Assembly (NCBI RefSeq): GCF_028368935.1
Contig: NZ_JAQNDK010000001.1
Location: 1,116,001-1,180,000 of the forward strand
Source of the DNA: Sorangium aterium
Lineage (GTDB): Bacteria > Myxococcota_A > Polyangia > Polyangiales > Polyangiaceae
Length of the DNA: 64,000 nt
Reading direction: 5' to 3'
Shown piece by piece: positions 11,194 to 30,940 of this stretch. Numbering within the stretch: the stretch's first letter is position 1; each line of letters begins with the position of its first letter. The position numbers were made by a program, and so were the translations under genes. The notes beneath the pieces are model-generated. The model was not told where the DNA came from. It ran no database searches and worked only from the letters and a program-made list of their open reading frames with translations.

Positions 11194-12735
11194 CTACGGC
11201 CGTCCGCCACGACGGGTCGCTCGGCCGTCCGCGTCGGTGAAGCGGCGGTTCGCCGCTGCCGCGAGGCGCGCCTGCGCGCCGTGCGCCACGTCGTGGAGGA
11301 CCCGCTCGACCACCGGCTCATGGATCGCGATCAGCCGCGCCGGGGCCACCCCCAGGACGACGGTGAGTGCGACGAGCGCGAGCAGGAACGCGCGCTCGCG
11401 AAGCACGAGCGCCTCCAGCGCGGCGCCCTTCAGGTGGCGCCGGAGCGGCCCCAGGAAGGTCCGCTGGAACGCCCGGAACAGCGTGATCCCGTTGAGCGCC
11501 GCCGCCGTCAACGCGAGCACCGCGAGCACGGGATGGGCATGCAAGATTCCATGCAGGAGCAGGTCCTCGCTCACGAACGAGAGCGCTCCCGGCATCCCGA
11601 TCATGGCGCAAGCGAGCAGGAAGAAGAAGGCGGCCATGCGGGGCGTCCGGGCGACGAGGCCGCCGAGCTCGCGCGTGTCCGCCGTACCGGCGCGCGCCTC
11701 GATCGCGCCGACGACCATCGTGAGCCCCGTGATCGCGATCGACAAGGCGACGCTCTGCAGGAGCGCGCCGCTCACGCTCTGCGGGCTCAGCGAGGCGACC
11801 CCCAGGAGCACGAGCCCCTTCTGGCTCGCCACGAGGTAGCCGAGCAGCCGGCGCAGATCGGTCTGGACCAGCGCGAGCACCGCGCCGTGCAGCGCGCTGA
11901 TCAGGCCGAGGACGGCGAGGATCGGCATGCCGTCGGCGCAGCCAACGGGCAGGAGCGTCGCCCCCACGCGAACGAGCACGCAGACGCCGACCTGCATCTG
12001 GGCGAGCAGGATGGTCACGCCGAGCGGCCCCCGCTCCAGCAGCACCGGCAGCCAGCCGTGGAACGGCACGGCGGCCATGCGCATCAGCACCGCGATGCCG
12101 ACGAGCGCGAACAGGGGCGACTGCCATGCTTCGGGGACGCCGACGCGGGCGATCTCCTCGACGTCGAACGGCAGGGCGGCGCCCTGGCGCGCGGCGAGCA
12201 CGGCGATGGCGCCGATCGCCACGACGAGCGGCGCCGTGCCCCCCAGCAGGAAGATGCGGCAGGTGCGCCGGAGGAGCGGGTCCTGGGCGCCCTTCCTGGC
12301 GACCAGGCGATCCACCGGCACGAGCGCAGCGACCCACGCCGCCGCGAGCACCGCGAGATCGACGGAGCAGAACACGCCGAGGATGGCGCTGCCGGTGGCG
12401 AGCAGCGCGGCGGCGCCGGGCCGATCGATCGCGGCGCGCGGGCTCGCGGCGAGCAGGGCGAGCAGGACGAAGCCGAGCAGAGGGAGCAGGGTGATGGTGA
12501 AGCCGTCGAGGCCGAGGCGGAGGCGCGCCCCGAGGAGCGGCAGGGCGGGCCCCCCGGCGGTCAGCGCGACGCCGGCGTACGAGAGCGCGAGCGGCAGCAG
12601 CGAGAGGAGCAGGGTGAGCGCCGCGCCGATGAGGGCGACGCGGCGCGCGCGCTCGTCGCTGCGCGCCCGGGCGGCGAACAGCGCCGCGATCGCGGGCGTG
12701 AGGATGAGCGTCCCGAGGAGCGGAAAGGCGTTCAT
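11194..12735 (-). CDS. NuoM-like antiporter subunit, degenerate, in DAB operon
   Basis: A 513-residue polytopic membrane protein of the proton-conducting antiporter family (NuoL/M/N, MrpA/D). Aligned by eye to E. coli NuoM, the TM5 Glu (NuoM E144) is Val in AAAWVAALVPV. The TM7 Lys (K234) is Arg in VLMRMAAVPFHGWLP. The TM8 Lys (K265) is Ala in TILLAQMQVG. The C-terminal Glu (E407) is kept in SFVSED. A working proton channel is therefore doubtful; it may be structural. Its ATG overlaps the DabB stop by 4 bp, so they are translationally coupled. Standard DAB systems have only DabA and one NuoL-like DabB. Confidence 0.85.
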   Translation of the reverse strand: MNAFPLLGTLILTPAIAALFAARARSDERARRVALIGAALTLLLSLLPLALSYAGVALTAGGPALPLLGARLRLGLDGFTITLLPLLGFVLLALLAASPRAAIDRPGAAALLATGSAILGVFCSVDLAVLAAAWVAALVPVDRLVARKGAQDPLLRRTCRIFLLGGTAPLVVAIGAIAVLAARQGAALPFDVEEIARVGVPEAWQSPLFALVGIAVLMRMAAVPFHGWLPVLLERGPLGVTILLAQMQVGVCVLVRVGATLLPVGCADGMPILAVLGLISALHGAVLALVQTDLRRLLGYLVASQKGLVLLGVASLSPQSVSGALLQSVALSIAITGLTMVVGAIEARAGTADTRELGGLVARTPRMAAFFFLLACAMIGMPGALSFVSEDLLLHGILHAHPVLAVLALTAAALNGITLFRAFQRTFLGPLRRHLKGAALEALVLRERAFLLALVALTVVLGVAPARLIAIHEPVVERVLHDVAHGAQARLAAAANRRFTDADGRATRRGGRP

Positions 12736-14165
12736 GTGCGAGCCCTCTTCGTGCCGCGCGCGCGGGGCTGAAAGGCCGCCGCGCCCTCTGTCGCGTCGCG
12801 GGCGTCCTCGTCGCCGGGCTCTGCGGGGGTGCGCTCAGGCCAGCCGCTCAACGCCGCCACCCAGCGGCGCTCGCTCTGGTCGAGCAGGCGCCCGAGGCGC
12901 ATCAGCGGCGCGGCGACGAGCCGCTCCTGCAGCCCCTCGAGGTGGAAGCGGTCGAGGGACAGCCAGTACGCGCGCCGCACGAGCGCCGCCGGCAGGAGCC
13001 GGCCAGCGAGCCCGAGGTGCGGCAGCGGCTCGCCGGCGTGCGCGGCCCGGATGTCCTGCGCGTCGCGGAGCGCCGAGGGGGCGCGCAGCAGCTGGAGGCA
13101 GCGCAGGCAGGCGTGGGCGAACAGGTGGACGAGCGCGAGCCAGTAGAGCCCGAGCCCGATCTCCACGAACATGAGCCCCACCTGCGTCATCGTCGCGTGC
13201 GCGAGCGCGCCCTTCACGTCCGCCTGCACGCGCCCCACCATCGTGCCGTAGACGGCCGTCGCCGCCCCGACGCAGGCGACCACCACGCTCGCGGCGAGCG
13301 AGCGCTGGAGCAGCGGGGCCGCGCGGAGCATGAGGTACACGCCGGCGTGCACCGAGATGGCGCCGTAGAAGAGCGCGCTCGACGGCGTCGGCCCCTCCAT
13401 GGCCCGCGGCAGCCAGCTGCCCACGGGAAACTGCGCGCTCTTGCCCATCGCGGCGAGGAACAGGCACAGCGCGAGCGCCGTGGCCGCGCCGGGCCCGAGC
13501 GACGCGGCGGTCCCGGGCCAGGGCGAGCCGCCGAACACCTCGCCCCACTGCGAGGAGCGGGCGACGTCGTGCATGAGCACCGCGCCCCCGAGCAACCCGA
13601 TGTCGCAGAGCCGGTAGGTGATGTACACGCGCACCGCGGCCCGCGGCGGCGCCTCGCGCTCGTGGAAGAAGGCCACGAGCAGCACGCTCGTCGCGCCGAC
13701 CAGCTCCCAGCCGGCGAAGAGGAGGTCGACGGTGCCCGCCGACACGAGCCCCAGCATCCCGGTCGAGAACAGCGCGAGGAGCAGGAAGAAGCGCGCGAAG
13801 CCCGGCTCGCGGTGCAGGTACGCCACCGAGAACCTGCCGACCAGGAGCGCGATCAGCGAGACGAGGAGCATCATCGTCGCCGACAGCCGATCAACGAGCA
13901 GGACGACCTCGAACGCATAATCGCCGAGCTCGAACCAGTGGCCGAGCGCCACCGGGACGAACGCGTAGGGCGCCGCGACGGCCGAGAGCCATATCGCCAG
14001 CGAGGCCGCGAGCGAGAGCGCGAGCGTGGAGAGCACGACGCGCGACACGACGCGCTCGCTCGGCGTGCGAACGAGCAGCAGGTAGGCGCCGAGCGCGGCG
14101 AACGCCGCCGCCGGAGAGAGCACGGCGAGCGCGGCGAGCTTGCCGAGGAGCACATCAGACAGCAT
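12732..14165 (-). CDS. dabB: NuoL-like membrane subunit of DAB inorganic carbon transporter
   Basis: In DAB systems this subunit conducts cations (proton or sodium) and energises carbon hydration by DabA. The 477-residue polytopic protein keeps the key residues: Glu in FAGWELVGATS and Lys in MGKSAQFPVGSWLP, followed by SSALFYGAISVHAGVYLM. I chose ATG 14165 (GAGG about 10 bp upstream) over an in-frame GTG at 14180. The start lies inside the 3' end of dabA, so translation is coupled. The C-terminal ~60 residues are hydrophilic. The adjacent DabA homologue is what separates this call from a stand-alone NuoL. Confidence 0.88.
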   Translation of the reverse strand: MLSDVLLGKLAALAVLSPAAAFAALGAYLLLVRTPSERVVSRVVLSTLALSLAASLAIWLSAVAAPYAFVPVALGHWFELGDYAFEVVLLVDRLSATMMLLVSLIALLVGRFSVAYLHREPGFARFFLLLALFSTGMLGLVSAGTVDLLFAGWELVGATSVLLVAFFHEREAPPRAAVRVYITYRLCDIGLLGGAVLMHDVARSSQWGEVFGGSPWPGTAASLGPGAATALALCLFLAAMGKSAQFPVGSWLPRAMEGPTPSSALFYGAISVHAGVYLMLRAAPLLQRSLAASVVVACVGAATAVYGTMVGRVQADVKGALAHATMTQVGLMFVEIGLGLYWLALVHLFAHACLRCLQLLRAPSALRDAQDIRAAHAGEPLPHLGLAGRLLPAALVRRAYWLSLDRFHLEGLQERLVAAPLMRLGRLLDQSERRWVAALSGWPERTPAEPGDEDARDATEGAAAFQPRARGTKRART

Positions 14166-17100
14166 GGTCGACGACCTCACGTGGCCGCGTTGACGCGGCT
14201 CGGATGAGCGCAGGCGGAACGAAGCCGGACCTCCCGGCGTACCAGTCGGCGGAGCGCTGGACCGCAGGCAGGGGTTGATGCGGTGGAGAGAACGGCGCGA
14301 AGCCGTCGCCCGTGAAGCACGCGATCCGGCCCGTCGCCGGATCGACGCAGGCGAGCTGGATCCAGCCGTTGCCGATGAGCTCGCGGAGGGCCGGCTGCCG
14401 CGCGTAGAGCGCGCCTGCCGTCTCCGTGCTCGCCTCGACGATGACGAGCAGGCGCACCGGCTCGTGGATCTCGATCATCTGCTTCGGCAGCCCGGTGCGC
14501 AGGTCGCTCAGCGATCCCTCCATGACCCCGAGCAGCGAGGCGAGGTTGTGCGGGAGCTTGGTGCCGGCGCCATAGCGGCGGTTGTCGACGCAGGAGAAGT
14601 AGTACTCGAGGTTGATCCCTGCCCCGACCGGGCCGACCGCGAGCAGGATGCGCTCGAGGATCGTCCCGCCCTGGTCCTGGGTCGGGTCGTACGAGACGAG
14701 GAACGCCCTGCGGTCGAGGAACAGCCCGCGGGTGAGCGAGCGGCGGCCGACGACGCAGACCGCGTTGGTGACGTGCCCCAGCTCGGGCCGCGCCTCGCTG
14801 AGATCCGCGGCGCGCGCCTCGACGTGCGCGAGCGCCCGCGCGGCGTCGCCCTCGCGCGGCGCCGACGCGAACCTCCGGCAGCGCTCGTGCGCGTGCTGCT
14901 GGCGCGCAGCGTCGAGCGCCCCGACCAGCGCCGAGAGCTCGCCGCGGTGGGACGCCGGCACGAGGTTCTGGTCGTAGAGGACGATCTCGTCCGTCGTCGT
15001 GTTGTTCATGCCGCCGAGGAAGAAGGTCCCGTCCGGGATGTCGATGCCGCGCGCGGCGAGCAGCACGCGGACCTCGGGATCGTTCGCCATGGCCGCGAAC
15101 AGCCGCGCGTTCGGGCCGCCGTGGCGGCCGCCGCACGCGCCGCAGTCGTACGCCGACTGGTGCGGGTTGTTCACGCTGGTCGCCCCGTGGCCGAGCACGA
15201 CCACGATCGGCGCAAAGACGCGCGTGAGCCCCATGTTCTCCAGCGTGGCAGCCACGCGGGCCGCCTTGGCCGCGGCGGTGAACGGCTGCCCCTCGCCGCC
15301 CGCGGCCGAGCCCTCGTCATGCGGGCTGTGGAGCCGCGTCGGCACCGGCGGGAGCAGACGCCGCTCGAGGGCGCGGCGCAGCCTCGCCACGGCCCGCGGA
15401 AACAGGGTGCGTCCCACGAGCGGCACGGTGGACAGGAGGCCCAGGGTCGGGGTGAGCAGCACGCCGCGCGCCATGGTGTGGGTACCGCGCCCCAGCGCGT
15501 GCAGGAGCCGCGCCCAGCGCTTGCGGCGAGCCTTTCGGCGCCAGCCCGCCTCCTCCTCGTGCGGCCGCTCGACGATCTCGTGCGCCGGCTCCACGCCGAC
15601 CGGGCAGAGGCTCACGTGGCCGGCGTCGTCGAGCCCGCGGTAGCGGATCGGCACGCCGAAGAACCCGGCCACGCCGAAGGTCTCGTGCCGCGGCGACAGC
15701 TCCTCGAAATGCCGCCGGAGGCCCTCGCAGCGGTCGTCGATGCAGAACGCGACCTGGAAGCGCGGCGCCTCCACGGAGCGCTCCTCCTCCGGGCGCCGGA
15801 GGTTCGCGGCGATCCCGTGCAGCACCTCGGTCCGGTGGTGGTGCTCGTAGGCCTCGTGCAGGACGCGGCGCCGCGCGATCTCGTCGAACGCCTCGAGCGC
15901 CTCGAGCGCCCAGACGCGCTCCGCCGTGGACAGCGGCTCGATCTCGGCGGCCGAGAGGCCGGCGAGCTGAGCGAGCTGGAACAGGCGGAACGGCCTGGCG
16001 TGGTCGGGAGAGCTCGACGGCGGCGCAGGGGGCCGCGCGGCCCGCCGGGCATGCTCGACGAGGCCAGCGAGGGGCCCCCGGTACCCGAGCCGCCGGCGCG
16101 CGACGTCGCGCAGCGCGTACCGGGCGAGCGTCAGGCGCACGGCGAGGTACTCGACCAGCGACACGGGCGGCGATCCCGGAGGCCGGTCGCTCGGGGTGTG
16201 CTCGAGGCGGTGGATCATGCCGGCCCAGCCCGGAAGCTCGAGCAGCACGCGCGTCACGTACACGTCCCAGTGATCCTCGGTGACGGAGAGCTCCTCGAGG
16301 GCGCGCAGCGCGATGGCGGGCGGCGACAGCGCCTCCGCGTCGAGCCGGCGGAGCTCCACGTCGAGCCCGACGAACGCCGGAGCGGCCAGCCAGGAGCCCT
16401 CGAGCGCCATGTCGCGAAAGCAGCGCCAGAGCCCCTGCGCTCGATCGGGCATCGCCCAGTGCGCGATGCCCTCGTCAAGGTAAGCGCCAAGGAAGCGGAT
16501 CACGAGCGGATCGACGAGCTCGGCCGGGTCCTCGCCTGCGAGCTCGATCAGCAGATCGCGGTGCGACCGGTCGGCGCCCACGCGCTCGACGAGCGGCGGC
16601 TCCACGGGAGGGGCGGGCGGCAGCGGAACGGCGCGGCACGCGTCCCAGAGCGCGAGGGCGGCGCGCGACTCCGGATCGCGGCCCCCCCGGTCGAGGAGGC
16701 GCGCCGCGATCTCCGGGTGCGCCTCGAGCCAGCGCTCCGTGTTCTGGACGATGCGCCGGCGTCGCTCGTCGGGGACGTCGGCCCGGAGCCTGCGCGTCTC
16801 CCCCGCCTCGGAGATACGCCACAGGAGGCCCGCCGCGGTCTCGGCGTCGATCGGGTGGCGCAGCGCGAGCCGCTCGATCTCGTGCCGGGACAGCGGGCCT
16901 CGGCGCTCGTCCGGCCGCGCGGCGAACCGCCCCGCGAGCGCGGCCTCGAGGTCCTCGTCGCCGATCCGACCCGACGCGATGTGCGCGCGGTAATCTGCCT
17001 CGGAGAGATACGGCTCGGCCTCGAAGACGGCGCTCGCCGCGGCGAGCGCGTCGTGGAACGGCAGGTGCTGGAACGCGTGCAACGTGTTGTGGTGGACGAA

Positions 17101-17214
17101 CACGCCGATCGGCCCCTGCGCCGGCAGGAGGTGTCCGGCGTGCTCGACCACGTCGGACAGGTGCTTCTGCCGGGCGGCGCTCGAGCGAAGATCCTGAGAG
17201 AGCTCGCTGTTCAT
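14155..17214 (-). CDS. dabA: DabA (DUF2309), zinc subunit of inorganic carbon transporter
   Basis: DabA is a cytoplasmic beta-carbonic-anhydrase-like subunit thought to hydrate CO2 in one direction, driven by DabB. The 1019 residues are near the family's usual length. The zinc ligands defined in Halothiobacillus DabA (Cys-x-Asp, His, Cys) are all here: FCIDDRC gives Cys491 and Asp493, VLGHGATSVN gives His676, and YDCGACGG gives Cys691. The His-Cys spacing (15) matches. There are no membrane spans. It lies between the SulP gene (78 bp upstream) and dabB. In a presumed heterotroph, bicarbonate supply for carboxylases is the likely use. Confidence 0.93.
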   Translation of the reverse strand: MNSELSQDLRSSAARQKHLSDVVEHAGHLLPAQGPIGVFVHHNTLHAFQHLPFHDALAAASAVFEAEPYLSEADYRAHIASGRIGDEDLEAALAGRFAARPDERRGPLSRHEIERLALRHPIDAETAAGLLWRISEAGETRRLRADVPDERRRRIVQNTERWLEAHPEIAARLLDRGGRDPESRAALALWDACRAVPLPPAPPVEPPLVERVGADRSHRDLLIELAGEDPAELVDPLVIRFLGAYLDEGIAHWAMPDRAQGLWRCFRDMALEGSWLAAPAFVGLDVELRRLDAEALSPPAIALRALEELSVTEDHWDVYVTRVLLELPGWAGMIHRLEHTPSDRPPGSPPVSLVEYLAVRLTLARYALRDVARRRLGYRGPLAGLVEHARRAARPPAPPSSSPDHARPFRLFQLAQLAGLSAAEIEPLSTAERVWALEALEAFDEIARRRVLHEAYEHHHRTEVLHGIAANLRRPEEERSVEAPRFQVAFCIDDRCEGLRRHFEELSPRHETFGVAGFFGVPIRYRGLDDAGHVSLCPVGVEPAHEIVERPHEEEAGWRRKARRKRWARLLHALGRGTHTMARGVLLTPTLGLLSTVPLVGRTLFPRAVARLRRALERRLLPPVPTRLHSPHDEGSAAGGEGQPFTAAAKAARVAATLENMGLTRVFAPIVVVLGHGATSVNNPHQSAYDCGACGGRHGGPNARLFAAMANDPEVRVLLAARGIDIPDGTFFLGGMNNTTTDEIVLYDQNLVPASHRGELSALVGALDAARQQHAHERCRRFASAPREGDAARALAHVEARAADLSEARPELGHVTNAVCVVGRRSLTRGLFLDRRAFLVSYDPTQDQGGTILERILLAVGPVGAGINLEYYFSCVDNRRYGAGTKLPHNLASLLGVMEGSLSDLRTGLPKQMIEIHEPVRLLVIVEASTETAGALYARQPALRELIGNGWIQLACVDPATGRIACFTGDGFAPFSPPHQPLPAVQRSADWYAGRSGFVPPALIRAASTRPREVVDHAV

Positions 17215-17292: not shown

Positions 17293-18933
17293 TCAACGCT
17301 CGGCGACGGGGCTGATGACGGGCCGCTTCCTCGCCGAGAGCGGGTGGGAGGACATCTGGAAATGATCGCCGAGGCCGGCGAGGGTCAAGGTCCGCCCATT
17401 TCGTTCCATCACGCCCTGGAGCTCATGCAGATTGGACATGACCGTGTGATCGACCAGGCGGGCATCCGCGAAGTTGATCTCGATGTTCGCAACCTGCGCG
17501 TGGTTGTCGATCTTCCGCTGGATGCTGAGGTAATTGCTGAAGATGGCGGCGTGCTTGACGCGCAGCACGACCCGCCCGTCCTCGACGCGCTCGTCCACAT
17601 CGGGGCGGAAGACGACGCGCAGCGGCGCGCCGTTCGTGAGGTGAATGAGCAGCTTCACGGCGATGCCGGCCGCGACGCCGACGAGCAGATCGGAGACGAT
17701 GCACATCACAGCCGTGGTGGCGAAGATGACGAGCTGCTCCCTGCCGATGCGGAGCGTCTTCGCGAACTCCTTGGGCGACGCGAGGCGGGTGCCCGTGAAG
17801 GTGAGCATGGCGGCGAGCGCGGCGAGGGGGATCCGGTGGATGAGGCCCGGCGCGAAGGCCACGAAGAGGAGGAGGAAGGTCCCGTGAAAGAAGTTGGACA
17901 ACCGGCTCTTCGCGCCGTAGCCGATGTTCGCGGAGCTGCGAACGATTTCGGAGATCATCGGCAGCCCGCCGAGCAGGCCCGCGATGAGGTTGCCCACGCC
18001 CGTGGCAAGCAGATCCTTGTCGAGGTTGGACCGGCTCTTCGCGGGATCGAGCGAGTCGACGGCCTTCGCGGACAGGAGCGACTCGATGCTGCCCACCAGC
18101 GAGAACATGACGATATATTTGATGGACGCGGGCGTGCCGACGTGGCTGAAGTCCGGGAAGACGATCGCCTGGAGGAGGTTTCCAGGCAGGTTGACGAGGA
18201 AGCTCGGCCCGATCGCGTACGTCGCCTGGGTCGCCGCGAGCGTGTACGTGTGCTCGTGCTCGAGATCGAAGACATAAGCGAGCGGCACGGACAGCGCGAG
18301 CACCAGCATCGGCGCGGGGATCTTCTGCATCCAGCTCGCTCTCTTGGCGAGCAGCGGATAGCCGAAGAGGAGGATCATCGAGAGGACGCCGATCGAGGCG
18401 ATCTCGGGGTTCAGGCGCGACAGGCTGCGCGGGATCTCGAGGATCAGGTGGAGCGGATCTTTCGCCGAAGGCGTGACGCCGACGAGCGTGTGGACCTGCT
18501 TCGAGCAGATGATGATCCCGATGGCCGCCAGCATGCCGTGGACCACCGAGGAGGGGAAAAAGTCGCCGAGCGTGCCCGCGCGCGCCAGGGCGAAGGCGAT
18601 CTGTGTCACCGCGGCGATGGCGATGCAGGCGAGCGCGCGGCGGTAGCCCACGGCGTTGTCCCCACCGCCGAGCTCCTGGACGGCGCCGAGCGCAATGACG
18701 ATGAGGCCCGCGGCGGGCCCCTTGATGGTCAGCGGCGCGCTGCCGAGCCAGGTGGCGACCATGCCACCGACGACGGCGGTGAGCACGCCCGCGATGGGGG
18801 GGAACCCGCTCGCCATGGCGATGCCCAGGCAGAGCGGTAGGGCGATCAAGAAAACGAGGAACCCTGAAACCAGGTCGTTCCTCCATGTGGACGCCGCGGA
18901 CGTCGACGTCCTAGAAATCTTCGGATTGGACAT
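17293..18933 (-). CDS. SulP-family anion (possibly bicarbonate) transporter with STAS domain
   Basis: A 546-residue permease with ~12 membrane spans (WRNDLVSGFLVFLIALPLCL is the standard SulP opening) and a C-terminal STAS-like domain from ~residue 430 (ANIEINFADARLVDHTVM). SulP members carry sulphate, bicarbonate (BicA) or other anions. Its position as first gene of the DAB operon favours bicarbonate, but this is inference. I chose ATG 18933 (MSNPKISR). An in-frame ATG at 18963 would add ten residues, and neither has a strong ribosome site. It is divergent from the ECF sigma gene across 287 bp. Confidence 0.85.
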   Translation of the reverse strand: MSNPKISRTSTSAASTWRNDLVSGFLVFLIALPLCLGIAMASGFPPIAGVLTAVVGGMVATWLGSAPLTIKGPAAGLIVIALGAVQELGGGDNAVGYRRALACIAIAAVTQIAFALARAGTLGDFFPSSVVHGMLAAIGIIICSKQVHTLVGVTPSAKDPLHLILEIPRSLSRLNPEIASIGVLSMILLFGYPLLAKRASWMQKIPAPMLVLALSVPLAYVFDLEHEHTYTLAATQATYAIGPSFLVNLPGNLLQAIVFPDFSHVGTPASIKYIVMFSLVGSIESLLSAKAVDSLDPAKSRSNLDKDLLATGVGNLIAGLLGGLPMISEIVRSSANIGYGAKSRLSNFFHGTFLLLFVAFAPGLIHRIPLAALAAMLTFTGTRLASPKEFAKTLRIGREQLVIFATTAVMCIVSDLLVGVAAGIAVKLLIHLTNGAPLRVVFRPDVDERVEDGRVVLRVKHAAIFSNYLSIQRKIDNHAQVANIEINFADARLVDHTVMSNLHELQGVMERNGRTLTLAGLGDHFQMSSHPLSARKRPVISPVAER

Positions 18934-19220
18934 GCGGTGCTCGCCTTGGAGTTGGGGCACCATGTGGGCCCGCTGTTCGTCAGAACACGGCCCAGGACGG
19001 GACCACTCAGCCCGAGGTTCCCGCTCGGGGTGACAATTTCGTGCGGCGCCCAGGAACCTCGGCGCGGCTCCGTTCCGTCCCAGGGCGGCCGATGCACATT
19101 TCCCCCTCCTCCGGGGCGCCGTCGCTCGCCCCCCCGTGGCGCGAGCGGCGGGCGCTACCGTTCCGTCCATTCCACGCTAGAGTTCCGGCCTTCGACGCTC
19201 TAGATGCTCGAACGGCCCTC

Positions 19221-23742: not shown

Positions 23743-23770
23743 CGCGTGATGCGCCGTCGCACATCACGCG
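23743..23770. terminator. Hairpin between methyltransferase and Ehr operon ends
   Basis: CGCGTGATG (23743-23751) pairs perfectly with CATCACGCG (23762-23770) around a 10-nt loop. The right arm contains the stop codon of the Ehr small-subunit gene. Suitable as a bidirectional terminator. Confidence 0.55.
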
Positions 23771-24516
23771 ATCCCGAGCAGATCGAGTATCGCGTTTACG
23801 AAGGTGAGCGGGTGCGGGGGACATCCAGGGACGTAGAGTGAAGGGCCAACGCTCTCCAGGAAGCCGCGGTCGACGCCCGCCGCGCCGTCGTAGAGGCCCC
23901 CGGAGATCGCGCAGGCCCCCACGGCGACGACGAACCGCGGCTCGGGCATCGCATCCCAGGCCAGCCGAACCGCCTCCTTCATGTTGCGCGTGAGCGGACC
24001 TGTCAGGACGAGCGCATCCGCGTGCCGCGGAGAAGCTACCCACTCGATCCCGAACCGCTGCACATCGAAGTTGACGTTGGTGACGGCGTTCAGCTCGAGC
24101 TCGCAGGCGTTGCAGCCGCCGGCCGAGACCTGGCGCATCTTCAGAGACCGCCCGAACAACCTCGAGAACGCCGCGGAAGCGCGGACCCGCACCATCTCCT
24201 CTTCGCCCTCTCGAACCGTGAGGTCAACGGGCTCGTTCCCGCCCATCCTGGGCTCCGGCCTGAACTCGATCTTCGTCTCGGGACAGACCTCCGCGCAAGC
24301 GTTGCAGAAGACGCAGCGGCCCAGATCGAGCGCCACCGGAGCCAGCCGGATGGCCTGGGTCGGGCACGCGTCGCGGCACGCGCTGCAATCGGCCGCGCAG
24401 GGGTCGCGGCGGATCGTCGGGCGACCACGAAACCCGGTTGGTACTGCCTTGCGGAGATCCGCGATGGCCTGCGTGCCCTGGGAGGCACGTACACGGAGCG
24501 ACAAAAACATGCTCAT
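23764..24516 (-). CDS. Ehr complex: fused ferredoxin (HyfH/NuoI) and small subunit (HyfI/NuoB)
   Basis: A 250-residue iron-sulphur protein. Residues 40-51 (C40, C44, C47, C51) and 68-78 (C68, C71, C74, C78) form two 4Fe-4S ferredoxin motifs, as in NuoI/HyfH. Residues ~130-250 are a NuoB/HyfI-type small subunit with Cys135, Cys138, Cys202 and Cys232 as ligands of the proximal 4Fe-4S cluster. In hydrogenase-4 and complex I these are normally two separate genes, so this is a fusion. It should pass electrons between a soluble carrier and the large subunit. Last gene of the operon; its ATG overlaps the previous stop by 4 bp. Confidence 0.88.
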   Translation of the reverse strand: MSMFLSLRVRASQGTQAIADLRKAVPTGFRGRPTIRRDPCAADCSACRDACPTQAIRLAPVALDLGRCVFCNACAEVCPETKIEFRPEPRMGGNEPVDLTVREGEEEMVRVRASAAFSRLFGRSLKMRQVSAGGCNACELELNAVTNVNFDVQRFGIEWVASPRHADALVLTGPLTRNMKEAVRLAWDAMPEPRFVVAVGACAISGGLYDGAAGVDRGFLESVGPSLYVPGCPPHPLTFVNAILDLLGIA

Positions 24517-25985
24517 AGATCGTTCCCGCAGTAGGAGAGGTCGAAGCTCTTGTTGCAGATCGGGAAGTCCGAGATCTCGTTGCCGCGCACCGCGAGGGCG
24601 AGCCCCATCCAGTTGCGGAGCGATGGGTCCTGGACTTTGTAATGGACCACCTCGCCGTGCGCGCCGGTCTCGATGCAGTGGACGACCTCTCCCCGAAAGC
24701 CCTCCACGAGCGAAATGGCAAGCTGGTTCGGCGCGAGCTCGCCGATCGATAGCGGCGGATGCTCCCAGTTCGGGTAGAGCGCGATGACGGTCGATATCCA
24801 CGACAGGGACGCTTCGATCTCCGCGATGCGGATACGCGCGCGTGCCCAGCAGTCGCCGTCCGGCAAGACGGCGGGCTGGATGGGCACCACGCTGTACGCC
24901 CCGTGCTCCATGAGGTGGCGCGCGTCGAGCTCGATCCCCGAGGCGCGCGCGGCCAGCCCGACGAGCCCGAGCTCCCGCGCTTGCGCGGTCGTCAACGTTC
25001 CCGTGGAACGCAGCCGGTGCTGAACCGTTCGTGCCATGAGAAAGCAATCGTTGATGATCGGCAGATCTGCTTGAAGCAGCTCGAGGTTCGCGCGAATGTC
25101 GCGCAGCGTCTCCGGCGGCAGCCGCATCCGGACTCCGCCGGGACGTAGCGCTCCTCTGCCGAAGCGGCTGCCACACAGCCGCATCATCGTGTTGATCGCC
25201 GTGGTTCGGAGCCGGCCGTAGGTCGTCGCTCCCTGCAGAAATCCGACATCCGCCGCCATCCCGGCGAGCCCCGAGAGGTGCATCGCGACCCGCTCGAGCT
25301 CGAGAGCGACCGCCCGGGCGAGCTCGGTTTCGCCGTCCAGCTGGCATCCCGCGAGGCCCTCGAGGGCGGAGCAGTACGCCCATGCGTGAGCGACGCTGGT
25401 ATCTCCCGCGATGGTCTCGATGAGCGGGGTCAGGCTCCGCGGATCACGCTCGAGGAGCCGACGTTCGACGCCACGGTGCTGATAACCGAGGTGGATCTCC
25501 AGGTGATGCACCTGCTCCCCGAGGCACATGAAACGAAAGGAGCCGGGCTCGATCACCCCGGCATGGATGGGGCCGACAGCGACCTCGTGCACCTCCTTCC
25601 CTTCAATCTTGTAGAATGGGTGCGAGCGCATCGCCGATTGCTCCTGCCCCTCGTAGCGGATCGGCTTGAGCCACGGATGTCCGGCGATTCGCACGCCGGT
25701 CTGCTCGTGGAGCTCGCGCTCGAAGCAGTGAAGCGCGGCGTGCTCTGTCGTCATCTCGTGGTACCCGCGCTCCGGGGCCACCTCGGTCCTCGAGACGCGC
25801 AGGGAACGGTCCGACGCCTGAAGAACCGCCGTGATCGCGACGCGGTCGAGGTCGCGCCTGCCGACCAGCGTGACCACACGCATGTCCGCGCGGAGCTGCT
25901 TCAAGAGATCTTCGCGCCACGGCCCCGGCTCGAGCCTCGGGATCGCGTCCACGGCGACCTGGTGGGCGGTCATCGATGCCTTCAC
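24513..25985 (-). CDS. Ehr complex large subunit (HyfG/NuoCD-like) without Ni-Fe ligands
   Basis: A 490-residue protein: NuoC-like domain (~30-150) fused to a NuoD/hydrogenase large-subunit domain (HLGYQHRGVERRL at ~165). Where Ni-Fe enzymes have RxCGxC this has IAGDTSVAH (Ala193, Thr196). At the C-terminus DPCxxC is replaced by DLSYCG (Ser484, Gly487). All four Ni ligands are gone, so it cannot be a Ni-Fe hydrogenase, and no C-terminal processing site follows. The GTG start at 25985 overlaps the previous stop (GTGA). It belongs to the energy-converting-hydrogenase-related (Ehr) group, whose reaction is unknown. Confidence 0.87.
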   Translation of the reverse strand: MKASMTAHQVAVDAIPRLEPGPWREDLLKQLRADMRVVTLVGRRDLDRVAITAVLQASDRSLRVSRTEVAPERGYHEMTTEHAALHCFERELHEQTGVRIAGHPWLKPIRYEGQEQSAMRSHPFYKIEGKEVHEVAVGPIHAGVIEPGSFRFMCLGEQVHHLEIHLGYQHRGVERRLLERDPRSLTPLIETIAGDTSVAHAWAYCSALEGLAGCQLDGETELARAVALELERVAMHLSGLAGMAADVGFLQGATTYGRLRTTAINTMMRLCGSRFGRGALRPGGVRMRLPPETLRDIRANLELLQADLPIINDCFLMARTVQHRLRSTGTLTTAQARELGLVGLAARASGIELDARHLMEHGAYSVVPIQPAVLPDGDCWARARIRIAEIEASLSWISTVIALYPNWEHPPLSIGELAPNQLAISLVEGFRGEVVHCIETGAHGEVVHYKVQDPSLRNWMGLALAVRGNEISDFPICNKSFDLSYCGNDL

Positions 25986-27418
25986 GGCCCCTCCAAGCAA
26001 CCAGCCACCTGCGCGAGCAGCGAGTTGATGGGCGGCGGGATGTAGACGCCCAGCACCACCAGCGCGACGAGGAACCCGAGCTTGGGCAGAGCGACCGGCA
26101 GCGTCTGCCGAGGCCAGCTGCGCTGCCTCGTGGGTTCACCCCAGATCATCGGAAACACCGCTCGCCCCGTCGCCACGAACGTCATCGTGATCAGCACGCA
26201 GAAGGCGGCGAAGACGAGCATCTGCCCCGAGCCGACGAGGGCAGACAGGATCAGGAGCTCTCCGAGAAAGCTGCCGAACGGCGGAAAGCCGAGCAGCGCG
26301 AAGGTGCCGACCATCAAGAACCCGCCGCTGTACGGGAGGTCCTCGATGAGGCCCGATATCGCGCGCGTGTCCTTGGTACGATAATGAGCCTTGATCGTGC
26401 CCGCCGTGAGGAAGAGGATCGCCTTGATGAAGGCGTTGCTCAGGACATAGAGCAGAAGTCCGTAGGACGCCGACTTGCCGACGCCGAGGCCGATCGCGAT
26501 CACTCCGGCATGGTTGATCGACGCATAAGCGATGAGGCGCTTCAGGTTGCGGGTCGCTATGATGCCGACCGTCGACACGACCACCGAGACGATGCCCATC
26601 GTGAGGAGCTCGCCTTCCAAGAGCGCCGCGTGGGTCGGTCGGACCACCTGAACGACGCGGAGCAGCGCGACGAGAACGCAGTTGAACTGGACGGCGCCGA
26701 GGAGCGCCGCGACGGCCGGCGGGGCCTCGTCGTAGGCCTCCGGGAGCCAGCTGTACATCGGCGCGAGGCCCAGCTTGGTGCCCAGCCCGAGGAGCGCCAG
26801 CGCGGCCCCGAGCTTCGTCCAGTGGTTCACCGGGATCGCGGAAGGCTCGAGGAGGCGATCGAGGAAGAACGTCGGAGCCTGGCCGCCGGCTTCGAGCCCG
26901 CGCCCCAGGCAGATGAAGCCGACGAGGAGCACGCCGAGCCCGACGGACGAGAAGAGCAAATAGCGCCATGACGCTCGATGGGACGCCGGTACGCCGGGTC
27001 GCACGATGAGGGGCGCGGCCGCGAGGGTGGTCGCCTCGAGCGCGATCCAGAGCAACACCAGGTGATTCGCGATAAGCACCGTGTTGGCTGCAGCCAGGAA
27101 CAACAGCGCCAGCCACACGAACCGCGCGATGTCCTGGCGGAGCGCCGGGGTCGTGTACACCCGATGCATCACGTACAGGGAGATGCCGAGGAAGATCGAG
27201 TCCACGACGGTCATGAAGAGCCGTGAAGTCGCGTCCAGGCGAAAGAATCCGCCGAGAGAGCCCGGGACGTCGGGGGGCATCGCGGCTCCCATGATCGCGA
27301 GGGCCGTCGTTATCGCGGAGGCGCCGACAAGGACCAGCGTGGCTCGTTCGCGGGCGGCGCGCGCGATGAGCGCCACGGATGCGAGCGCTGGAAGCAGGAC
27401 GAGGGCGATCGTGCTCAT
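25982..27418 (-). CDS. Ehr complex membrane subunit, HyfF/NuoN-like antiporter
   Basis: A 478-residue polytopic antiporter-type subunit (~14 helices). The TM5 Glu is kept in LLWIALEATTLAAA and the TM7 Lys in GLGTKLGLAPMYSWLPEAY. The TM8 position (LGAVQFNCVLVALLR) has no lysine. It probably pumps ions when the hydrophilic arm transfers electrons. The start overlaps the preceding gene's stop by 4 bp and its stop overlaps the next start, so it is tightly coupled within the six-gene unit. Confidence 0.87.
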   Translation of the reverse strand: MSTIALVLLPALASVALIARAARERATLVLVGASAITTALAIMGAAMPPDVPGSLGGFFRLDATSRLFMTVVDSIFLGISLYVMHRVYTTPALRQDIARFVWLALLFLAAANTVLIANHLVLLWIALEATTLAAAPLIVRPGVPASHRASWRYLLFSSVGLGVLLVGFICLGRGLEAGGQAPTFFLDRLLEPSAIPVNHWTKLGAALALLGLGTKLGLAPMYSWLPEAYDEAPPAVAALLGAVQFNCVLVALLRVVQVVRPTHAALLEGELLTMGIVSVVVSTVGIIATRNLKRLIAYASINHAGVIAIGLGVGKSASYGLLLYVLSNAFIKAILFLTAGTIKAHYRTKDTRAISGLIEDLPYSGGFLMVGTFALLGFPPFGSFLGELLILSALVGSGQMLVFAAFCVLITMTFVATGRAVFPMIWGEPTRQRSWPRQTLPVALPKLGFLVALVVLGVYIPPPINSLLAQVAGCLEGP

Positions 27419-28047
27419 AGCGTGGGCCCCTCCACGGCGCCCTCGGGCTGCGCGGCGGTGCTCGCGCCGAGCATCTTGAGATACCAGCGATAGAGCGCGA
27501 TCGTCACGGCGACGACGGCGACCTGACCGAGCTGAACGGCGAGCATGTCGTGCTCGTGCGCGCCGCCGAGCTCGAATAGAGCGATCGCGTTCTCGACGCG
27601 AAGAACACCCACCATCTGGCTGAACGGACCGGATTGCGTCGATAGCACGAGGAAGCCGAGCAGCACCCCCGCTGCAGCCACCGCGACGAGCGTTCGCTGC
27701 TCTCCGTGCTCGGGGACGAGCGACTCGGAGAAGTTGAAGGCGAGGAGGACGATGCCGAGGGCGATCGTCCAGGAGAGGAGGTTCGGCGAGATGACGTCGT
27801 TGCGCCGGGGCGCGTTCTGCGACCGAAGCACGCGGTAGAGCGCGATCGGCGCGGCGAGCCCGCGCAGGAGGACCAGATCGCCCAGGGTGACCCAGTCACT
27901 CACGGCGTCGAGCTCCGGATTCAGGCGGTACGCCACCCACGCCATCAAGAACCCTTGGCAGGACAGGCCGAGCAGGCTCGTCCGCCACGTCGCGACGAAC
28001 AGGGGGATGAGCAGCACGCCGAGCAGCGTATTCAAGAGGGGGCTCAT
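27415..28047 (-). CDS. Ehr complex membrane subunit, HyfE-like
   Basis: A 210-residue hydrophobic protein with about six membrane spans (LLNTLLGVLLIPLFVATW, LLSWTIALGIVLLAFNF). It contains the HyfE-type segment GVLRVENAIALFELGGAHEH, where conserved Glu residues sit in a helix like that of NuoK. It presumably links the antiporter subunits to the hydrophilic arm. ATG 28047 overlaps the stop of the NuoH-like gene by 4 bp. Confidence 0.82.
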   Translation of the reverse strand: MSPLLNTLLGVLLIPLFVATWRTSLLGLSCQGFLMAWVAYRLNPELDAVSDWVTLGDLVLLRGLAAPIALYRVLRSQNAPRRNDVISPNLLSWTIALGIVLLAFNFSESLVPEHGEQRTLVAVAAAGVLLGFLVLSTQSGPFSQMVGVLRVENAIALFELGGAHEHDMLAVQLGQVAVVAVTIALYRWYLKMLGASTAAQPEGAVEGPTL

Positions 28048-28967
28048 TCGGGGCCCCCCGCCCGCCACACGGTCGCGAGGAGCGCGACCGAGCCAGCGGC
28101 GAGCGCGATGACGATGTACTGGGGAACCGAGCGTAGCTTCAGCCGGGCTACCAGGGATTCGATCGTTCCAATCACGACGCCGGCCGCGAGGGTCAAGGCG
28201 AGGTTCGCGGCGGCGCAGGCCGCGCCGCCGGAGCCCGCCCACGGATTGAGGAGCGTCGCGACGATGGACGCGCCGACGAAGAGCTTGATCGCGGAGCCGA
28301 GGTGGATGCACGCGAGATCCGGGCCGCTGTGGTCGAGGATCATGACCTCATGCACCATCGTGAGCTCGAGGTGGGTCGTCGGGTCGTCGACGGGCATGCG
28401 CGCCGCCTCGACCTGAAGCACGATGAGCATCGCCACGACCGCGGCGCCCCAGACGAGCGCGGGTGCGCCGGCGTGGAGGTGCGGCGCCAGCGCCTCGTGC
28501 AGGGTGCGTCGGCCCCCGACGAGGCTCAGCGCGCCGGTGACGAGGAACAGCGCCGGCTCGAGGAGCGACGAGAAGACAGCCTCCCGCGCTGCGCCCATCC
28601 CCTCGAAGGAGCTCCCCGTATCGAGCGCGGCGAGCATGATGGCGACGCGGCCCAGCCCCCACACGTACGCGAACCACACGAAATCGAGCTGGAACGACGC
28701 GAGGGGCGTCGAACCGAGGAGAGGCGCGATGAGGGCGGAGCCCACCGCGGTCGCGAGGAACACGTACGGCGCGACCCGGAACAGCGGTGTCGTCGTCGTG
28801 CTGTAGACAGACGATTTCCGAAAGAGCCGCCTCACGTCATGGACGAGCTGAAGGACCGGCGGTCCCTTGCGCCCGGACCAGAGCGACTTCACGCGGTTGA
28901 TCACGCCGGTGAGGACGAACGGCATGACGACGAGCACGGCGACGTTCGCGAGGCGGGTGAGCATCAT
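28044..28967 (-). CDS. Ehr complex membrane anchor, HyfC/NuoH-like
   Basis: A 307-residue NuoH-family protein with about eight helices. The loop WSGRKGPPVLQLVHDVRRLF and the segment DDPTTHLELTMVHEVMILDH are diagnostic of the HyfC/HycD/NuoH group (in hydrogenases DDPxTHLELTMxHE). In complex I this subunit forms the quinone chamber; in membrane hydrogenases it docks the large subunit. The ATG at 28967 overlaps the preceding stop by 4 bp. Confidence 0.9.
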   Translation of the reverse strand: MMLTRLANVAVLVVMPFVLTGVINRVKSLWSGRKGPPVLQLVHDVRRLFRKSSVYSTTTTPLFRVAPYVFLATAVGSALIAPLLGSTPLASFQLDFVWFAYVWGLGRVAIMLAALDTGSSFEGMGAAREAVFSSLLEPALFLVTGALSLVGGRRTLHEALAPHLHAGAPALVWGAAVVAMLIVLQVEAARMPVDDPTTHLELTMVHEVMILDHSGPDLACIHLGSAIKLFVGASIVATLLNPWAGSGGAACAAANLALTLAAGVVIGTIESLVARLKLRSVPQYIVIALAAGSVALLATVWRAGGPE

Positions 28968-30940
28968 CGGCCGACCCCTCCGACGACCATCGCGCCGATG
29001 ATGACGAGCGCCACGAGCCCTGCGGCGAACGCGAAGCGCGGCTGCTCTGGGATGCGGTCAAAGGCTTGAGCGATGAAGTTCTCTCCGTGCCCGAGCACCT
29101 CGAACATGCGTCGCTCGACGGCGTCGACATGGTGCGTCGACAGATGGCCGGGCTGCTGCGGGAACGGCCCCTCGGGCAGCCGCTCCCTTCGAAGCGACGG
29201 CAAGAAGGATGCGAAGAACCGCGTGAATTGCTCGGAGAACGAGCTCCCCGTGTACTGCATGCGAGAGGAGGTGGCGGTGGTTCCACACCCCCACGTGACG
29301 CTTCGCCGCGCCGCTCGACCTCGACGCCAGCCGATCACGCCGGCGACGAGCAAGGCGCCGGCGAGCGCGCGGCTCGCCCACGCGAGCGGAGCGAGCAGGG
29401 CCGGCAGCGTGCTCGCGCTGGACTCGATGGGAAAGAGCCTCAGCGCGGCGCCTATCGCTGCGATGCCCAGGTCTGGAGCCACGCCGATGGCGACCACGAG
29501 CGCGGCGTGGATCACCATGGGCCAGAGCATCGAACCCGGCGCGTCCTCGCCGACGTGGAGCCCTGGCTCCCGAGGCACGCCGAGGAACGTGAGCCCGAAG
29601 GCCCTTGTCATCGACAGCGCGCTCACCGCGCCGACGAACGCCAGGGCCGCCGCCGCTGCGATGGTCACCACGCTGCCTTGACTGGAAGGCGCGCGCCCTG
29701 CGAGGAGCCCGGCGTAGATCAGGAACTCGCTGACGAAGCCGTTGAGCGGCGGGAGCGCGGAGATGGCCAGGGATCCGATGAGGAAGAGGATGGATGTCCG
29801 CGGGAGACGCCTCGCGAGCCCGCCGAGCCGCTCGAGATCGACGGTGTGCGCAGCCCGGTAGATCGCTCCAGCGGCGTAGAACAGAAGGCACTTGAACAGC
29901 GCGTGATTCAGGACGTGCAGGAGGCCGCCGCCGAAGCCGCACACGGTCAGCGCAGGGACTCCCCAGGCCCATCCCAGGTATCCCACCCCGAAGCCCATCG
30001 CTGCGATGCCGACGTTCTCTGTCGACGAGTACCCGAGCAGGCGCTTCAGATCGCGCTCGGCGGACGTGGAGAGGACGCCGAAGAACGCGGAGAGCGCGCC
30101 GAAGCCGAGCACGCTCCATCCCATCCACTCGTCGGGTCGTCCCATGAGCAGCGTGAAGCGGAGAAAGGCAAAGAGACCGGCCTTGTGGATCACGCCGGAC
30201 ATGAGCGCCGAGATGTGCGCCGGCGCCGCGGAGTGGGCTCGGGGAAGCCACGTGTGAAACGGAAAAAACGCGGATTTCAGCGCGAACGACGCCCCGAGGA
30301 GCAGGAAGAGCGTCCCCCGCGTCGGATCCTGGCTCGACAGGAATTTGCCGAACACGGCGAAGTCCATGGAGTCGGTCTTGCTGTGGAGCAGCATGAACGC
30401 CGCGACAAGGACGAAGAGCCCGACATGGGTTGAGATGAGATAGTTGAAGCCGGCAAAGCGGATCTTCTGGTTTCGGTAGTCCCAGATGACGAGCAGCCAC
30501 GCTGCGAGGGCGGCGATCTCCCATCCCAGCAAGAACACGAGGGCGTTCTGCACCGAGTAGATCAGCACGAAGGACAGGGCGACCATGTTCAAGAGAGCGA
30601 AGTGGGAGCCGCCGTTCCTCCCTCGATCGAAGTAGGGGCGGAGGTATCCGACGGCGTAGATCGTTCCGAGCAGCGTCATCGGGAGGGACCACGCGAGGAA
30701 GAACGCTCCGAGCGCGTCGACGCGAAACGCCATGCTGTCGATGGGCGTCGGCCAGGGCCACACGATCTCCAGAGCCTCGCCGCCTCGAAGGAGGGGGGCG
30801 ACCCTCGCGAGCACGAGCGCTGCGGCGATCGCTTGCGAGGCGATCGCCGCAGCGCTTCGCGCGCCGTTCGAGCGCAGGCCCAGCGAGAGCGCCGCCCCGA
30901 CGAGCAGCACGGGCACGCTGAGAAGCAGGGATCCCGTCAC
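28964..30940 (-). CDS. Ehr complex membrane subunit, HyfB/NuoL-like antiporter
   Basis: First gene of the six-gene Ehr operon; 658 residues with ~15 membrane helices. Key ion-path residues are intact: Glu in VFLLGWEIAALAAWLL, Lys in FALKSAFFPFHTWLPRAH, and His-Lys in SGVIHKAGLFAFLRF. The antiporter family (HyfB, MrpA, NuoL) uses these to move protons or sodium. The C-terminal ~90 residues include polar stretches and a final helix. The start ATG is at 30940; a receiver-like gene lies 79 bp upstream on the same strand. Confidence 0.88.
   Translation of the reverse strand: MTGSLLLSVPVLLVGAALSLGLRSNGARSAAAIASQAIAAALVLARVAPLLRGGEALEIVWPWPTPIDSMAFRVDALGAFFLAWSLPMTLLGTIYAVGYLRPYFDRGRNGGSHFALLNMVALSFVLIYSVQNALVFLLGWEIAALAAWLLVIWDYRNQKIRFAGFNYLISTHVGLFVLVAAFMLLHSKTDSMDFAVFGKFLSSQDPTRGTLFLLLGASFALKSAFFPFHTWLPRAHSAAPAHISALMSGVIHKAGLFAFLRFTLLMGRPDEWMGWSVLGFGALSAFFGVLSTSAERDLKRLLGYSSTENVGIAAMGFGVGYLGWAWGVPALTVCGFGGGLLHVLNHALFKCLLFYAAGAIYRAAHTVDLERLGGLARRLPRTSILFLIGSLAISALPPLNGFVSEFLIYAGLLAGRAPSSQGSVVTIAAAAALAFVGAVSALSMTRAFGLTFLGVPREPGLHVGEDAPGSMLWPMVIHAALVVAIGVAPDLGIAAIGAALRLFPIESSASTLPALLAPLAWASRALAGALLVAGVIGWRRGRAARRSVTWGCGTTATSSRMQYTGSSFSEQFTRFFASFLPSLRRERLPEGPFPQQPGHLSTHHVDAVERRMFEVLGHGENFIAQAFDRIPEQPRFAFAAGLVALVIIGAMVVGGVGR

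Follow-up and report, generated by a model that had tools for sequence, protein, structure and literature searches.

What does a protein resembling the complex I subunit NuoM do in a DAB operon, when DAB2 of Halothiobacillus neapolitanus consists of the two subunits DabA2 and DabB2 (PDB 9rd0; PMC13144422)? We found such a protein, here called M, encoded by the last gene of a minus-strand operon (SulP, dabA, dabB, M) in a stretch of 64,000 nucleotides from Sorangium aterium, referred to below as the window. DAB complexes are bacterial CO2-uptake pumps that hydrate CO2 vectorially, and DAB operons that carry M are termed class 2. The four genes are:

17293..19170, minus strand: gene of a SulP-family transporter, first in the operon, with its true start probably near 18933 and the same order in relatives
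14155..17214, minus strand: dabA (PF10070, 844 bits), 1019 aa, with putative Zn-ligand motifs and a non-acidic residue at the finger Glu444 site
12732..14180, minus strand: dabB, class-2 NuoL-like, 482 aa, with 11 TM helices and an amphipathic C-terminus, without TM12-15
11194..12735, minus strand: M gene, NuoM-like third subunit, 513 aa with 14 TM helices (ORF, Pfam and AF2)

The locus has the sequence hallmarks of a DAB/DAC system: a PF10070 DabA with the ligand motifs CxD...GHG...CGAC (FCIDDR, GHGATSVNNPH and DCGACGG) lies beside a PF00361 DabB. It shares with DAB2 a PF10070 cytoplasmic subunit carrying CxD/H/C ligand motifs and a NuoL-like DabB with path residues in TM4-11. DAB2, however, has two subunits in the order dabB-dabA and a DabB2 of 15 TM with Ile151 in TM5 and Lys347 in TM10, whereas the window encodes a third subunit, an 11-TM DabB that has Glu in TM5 and Arg in TM10, and a DabA finger without an acid. 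By gene content and order, with dabA upstream of a nuoL-like gene and accompanied by SulP and a NuoM-like gene, the operon is a member of the COGNAT 'clade C' of 2017 (COG3002 + COG1009 + COG1008 + COG0659; PMC5700660). MpsABC of Staphylococcus aureus also comprises DabA and DabB homologues with a third gene downstream; mpsC is dispensable and outside staphylococci is not collocated with mpsAB homologues (PMC6689103), and MpsC is no precedent for M. The host genome gave no match to the RuBisCO large subunit and three beta-carbonic anhydrase matches alongside the DAB operon, which suggests that the operon probably serves DIC supply in a heterotroph.

The start codon of M overlaps the stop codon of dabB (ATGA, 12732-12735), so that the translational coupling asserted in a preliminary description of this locus is plausible. 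M contains a Proton_antipo_M domain (Pfam 2e-33), and E. coli NuoM is both its closest solved structure by sequence (1.8e-40) and the top PDB match of its AF2 model (TM-score 0.88). This confident model (pLDDT 95.3) predicts 14 TM helices with broken TM7 and TM12, as in NuoM/ND4 of respiratory complex I. Unlike NuoM/ND4, M lacks the TM5 Glu, TM7 Lys, TM8 Lys and TM11 His, and its gene lies outside any nuo operon; its score also falls below the curated NuoM cut-off (228.5 bits vs 263.8; TIGR01972 / COG1008). The sites concerned are:

12331..12333, minus strand: M V135, position of NuoM TM5 Glu144, non-acidic in 94/94 homologues
12079..12081, minus strand: M R219, position of NuoM TM7 Lys234, Arg in 90/94
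11992..11994, minus strand: M Q248, position of NuoM TM8 Lys265, Lys lost in 92/94
11563..11568, minus strand: M E390-D391 in TM12b, positions of NuoM Glu407 and NuoL Asp400, second site D/E in 91/94

These counts, like those for DabB and DabA below, refer to related sequences and not to independent events. The multiple alignment pairs NuoM E144, K234, K265 and E407 with V135, R219, Q248 and E390 of M. Val in TM5 and Arg in TM7 had been read correctly by eye before; the TM8 residue had been taken for Ala a few positions away, and the loss of the Lys itself holds. The TM8 region aligns to NuoM with a 2-residue gap, and no TM8 Lys occurs within 8 columns in 90/94 M homologues; in 89/94, the TM5 site and the 5 columns on either side of it are free of acidic residues. 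Judged from this alignment of 94 homologues, the proton-path residues are lost from M and not displaced. All three are kept in 33/33 NuoM control proteins (32 from the phylum of the window, plus E. coli).

M is not devoid of path residues altogether. Its earlier portrayal as stripped of them is borne out for TM5, TM7 and TM8 but is too strong, as the acidic site in TM12 (E390, D391), which had been overlooked, is conserved; the column of NuoM E407 itself is acidic in just 50/94 M proteins, and the conserved acid stands one residue further on. The C-terminal half has other losses, with Gln in most homologues at NuoM H322 and Val or Ser at H348, and would thus be no ordinary half-channel. Mean column identity is 0.27 in M vs 0.64 in NuoM for TM3-8 and 0.39 vs 0.57 for TM9-14, a drop that is larger in TM3-8 than in TM9-14 (permutation p < 0.0002). 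Conservation within the M family is highest at Gly, Pro and Arg positions, for example P224, R348 and P382. This residue pattern appears to be new.

These losses bear on the proposal of 2017 that more membrane genes move more ions, which does not appear to take up the residues of M (PMC5700660). Applied to this operon, it would make M a second, independent ion channel, with more ions moved per CO2 as the result. The gene-number argument of that COGNAT study, the full 14-TM fold of M and the six-gene operons with additional intact M copies (see below) speak for such a channel, but a single class-2 M lacks all three N-half residues that every NuoM of the control set keeps, and the losses count against the more-genes idea. 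We therefore regard a second channel as improbable. The extra proton, and hence altered pump stoichiometry, envisaged in the preliminary description becomes less likely for the same reason; its view of M as a third subunit that is kept in the operon stands, and M would be unable to act as a complete antiporter alone.

Since M lacks residues on which the antiporter-like subunits of complex I depend, it might also be a pseudogene in decay or a passenger present by chance, and it had indeed been called a dead paralogue. We find the opposite. For M, pairwise maximum likelihood omega between Sorangium homologues is 0.19 and 0.12; dabB gives 0.13 and 0.18 and dabA 0.11 and 0.10, and omega = 1 is rejected (LRT 70-146). 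These values come from an ML codon model with F3x4 frequencies, which replaced NG86 because the latter gives misleadingly high dN/dS (0.53 for M against L094, one of its Sorangium homologues) at a GC3 of about 0.95. M itself has a GC3 of 0.95, holds its position across many phyla and has near-invariant residues of its own. The gene is not dead and is under purifying selection as dabB is; omega, GC3 and cross-phylum conservation rule out decay, an explanation to which we attach next to no credence.

How firmly M belongs to this operon is evident from its distribution. DabA occurs in 43/282 genomes of the phylum of the window, and DAB operons fall into two main classes, canonical ones with dabB-dabA and no third gene, and class 2 with dabA-dabB-M, in many cases preceded by SulP. 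Both classes occur together in some genomes of the phylum (e.g. G134 and G234), and Sorangium cellulosum So0008-312 has two class-2 operon copies (L094 and L095). A profile search of genome contigs with class-2 DabB found at least 584 relatives, the best 80 of which were compared as contig loci. According to their record titles, these 80 belong to Myxococcota (Sorangium, Nannocystis, Myxococcus), Planctomycetota, Verrucomicrobiota, Acidobacteriota, Gemmatimonadota, Armatimonadota, Wallbacteria and Streptosporangium. Among these best 80 of at least 584, M directly follows dabB in 78/78 class-2 loci whose contig extends past dabB; it is thus neither missing from related operons nor pseudogenised, with one degraded exception. 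This is a nearly unrecognisable membrane ORF of 369 aa that takes the place of M (L083, 4227-5333, minus strand); it matches only the C-terminal half of the M family, and that faintly, and is an extreme degenerate. The M clade is monophyletic (UFBoot 100), as is M together with M2 and M3 of the six-gene operons (also 100).

The partner of M could in principle be SulP, in which case M would serve bicarbonate or Na+ movement and not DabB. SulP is part of the operon, often as its first gene, and for the related MpsAB a function as Na+/HCO3- symporter has been proposed (PMC6689103). M is, however, contiguous with dabB even where SulP is absent or lies elsewhere, and in one locus it is fused in frame to DabB, not to SulP (L061, 6183-9257, minus strand; about 1025 aa, including an additional TM as linker). 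We see little chance for SulP as the partner. The natural fusion supports a 1:1 contact of DabB and M, and 11 TM of DabB plus the linker TM would leave the two halves oriented alike. A second apparent fusion (L184) was dropped because the assembly has a stretch of X/N within it.

Complementary changes are seen in DabB, where the sites concerned are:

13704..13706, minus strand: DabB E159 (TM5 Glu), Glu in 108/108 class-2 and 0/22 canonical proteins
13440..13442, minus strand: DabB K247 (TM7 Lys), conserved in 108/108 class-2 proteins
13101..13103, minus strand: DabB R360 (TM10), site of NuoL K342 and DabB2 K347, Arg in 108/108 class 2 and Lys in 22/22 canonical
13365-13367 and 13347-13349, minus strand: DabB Y272 and H278, NuoL TM8 His replaced by Tyr and a new His six residues on

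The Glu and Lys that the preliminary description had assigned to DabB are thus present, and Arg at the TM10 Lys site and the lack of TM12-15 can be added to it. In DAB2, mutagenesis showed that K347 and Ile151 of TM5 matter, along with E444 of DabA (PMC13144422). Canonical DabB proteins, which have no third subunit (n=22, among them proteobacterial and haloarchaeal ones encoded on plasmids), are acidic at TM5 in 0/22 and have the TM10 Lys in 22/22, so that DabB of the window departs from the DAB2 type, defined by TM12-15, a non-acidic TM5 and TM10 Lys, in all three respects (11 TM, E159, R360). A plasmid search with the class-2 DabB query gave no matches. The TM8 His is Tyr in 108 of 108 class-2 DabB proteins, with a His six residues further in 107; the Tyr count is partly built in because the patterns P[RK]AMEGPT and [PAS]SSA[ILV]FYG[AG][LI] had served to find the 80 contig loci, and TM5, TM7 and TM10 lie outside these patterns. 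In the predicted model of DabB, 11 TM helices are followed by an amphipathic C-terminus (pLDDT 92-94 for the block of residues 401-440), so that TM12-15 are missing. Class-2 DabB retains its N-half and lacks the end of the C-half.

DabA has changed as well. In DAB2, the finger Glu444 of DabA is essential and replaces NuoL K399/D400, and the coupling model drawn from the 2026 structure rests on this Glu inside the 15-TM DabB, an arrangement termed highly conserved (PMC13144422). In the multiple alignment, the Glu444 column holds P589 in DabA of the window. The column is E/D in 21/22 canonical DabA proteins vs 5/106 of the remaining ones, nearly all of which are class 2. Of these five exceptions, three belong to six-gene operons (L058, L060, L184), one locus has no class-2 DabB (L087), and one has a canonical-type finger with no DabB detected at the locus (L178).

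We propose that M, as an antiporter-like third subunit, is obligate in a distinct class of DAB complexes and that, itself a half-antiporter, it shares one proton path with DabB, a reading for which we judge the chances to be even. The data directly show conservation, gene order, residue pattern, predicted folds, purifying selection and one fusion, from which the assembly, the side of contact and the proton route are inferred. DabB would supply an intact N-terminal half-channel (TM5 E159, R190, D193, TM7 K247, K323, H352, H356 and R360). M, whose own N-terminal half-channel would be switched off by the missing TM5 Glu, the Arg for Lys in TM7 and the missing TM8 Lys, would contribute its C-terminal half with the acidic TM12 site. 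In complex I, the TM12 Glu of NuoM adjoins the TM5 region of NuoL across the subunit interface. If M adjoins DabB as NuoM adjoins NuoL, its TM12 acid would lie at the M-DabB interface beside DabB E159, and could assume the role that the finger Glu444 of DabA has in DAB2. DabA, DabB and M would then form a physical complex, with the contact side of DabB taken from the analogy with complex I. A disabled N-half of M combined with a TM12 acid facing DabB would amount to one path split between two half-antiporters, so that M would anchor and complete, or gate, a single path and add no second proton.

The residues kept in class 2 (the M TM12 acid and DabB TM5 Glu and TM7 Lys) match the sites at such an interface, and those lost would lie away from it. 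The change is also reciprocal: DabB has the TM5 Glu in 108/108 cases with M and in 0/22 two-subunit operons. Tentatively, and short of an even chance, we place the class-2 proton route between the M TM12 acid and the DabB N-half-channel at the subunit interface, with the coupling acid moved off the DabA finger. The strongest competing view sees M as purely structural, filling or bracing the space of the lost DabB TM12-15 and holding the DabA finger, without any role in proton movement. It would account for the truncated DabB, the loss of the TM5, TM7 and TM8 residues and the TM11 His in M, and the peak conservation at Gly, Pro and Arg (P224, R348, P382). A filler, however, would not need the TM12 acid, which is kept in 91/94, and would leave the TM7 site free to vary, which is Arg instead; nor would it explain why DabB has its TM5 Glu only with the M class. 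We consider a mere brace possible, if rather doubtful. Compared with a changed stoichiometry, a structural or coupling subunit is the better reading of M.

Some DAB operons comprise six genes. The arrangement INTERMEDIATES (SulP-M1-dabA-dabB-M2-M3) is found in two genomes of the phylum of the window and in several actinobacterial genomes (loci L058, L059/L060, L179-L181 and L184), and in G068 the operon lies on two contigs. As far as the assembly reaches, M1 and M3 retain E, K, K and E. The copy that follows dabB directly, M2, is degenerate and has no TM5 Glu; actinobacterial M2 retains both Lys, and in G174 and G068 the TM7 Lys is already Arg. This series suggests that, in the copy next to DabB, loss of the TM5 Glu preceded that of the Lys.

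The gene content of the class-2 operon has been known since 2017, and what appears new is the residue pattern; our literature search, which covered few subscription journals, found no paper on the residues of M or on a three-subunit DAB. Our data describe a widespread second DAB class without the finger Glu and DabB TM12-15, with a TM5 Glu and with a third subunit of complementary pattern. These natural mutants allow the DAB coupling mechanism to be tested directly, and in them a complex I-type antiporter is dissected by nature into separate half-channels. If true, the path split between M and DabB would mean a different coupling geometry for CO2 hydration.

The window also holds a separate complex I/hydrogenase-4-like cluster (23764-30940, minus strand) with 49-kDa, 20-kDa and NuoH-like subunits, two antiporter-like subunits and ferredoxin domains. 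Its large subunit matches Complex1_49kDa and none of the NiFe-hydrogenase models, so that the complex may be of the hydrogenase-related Ehr type, without a metal site.
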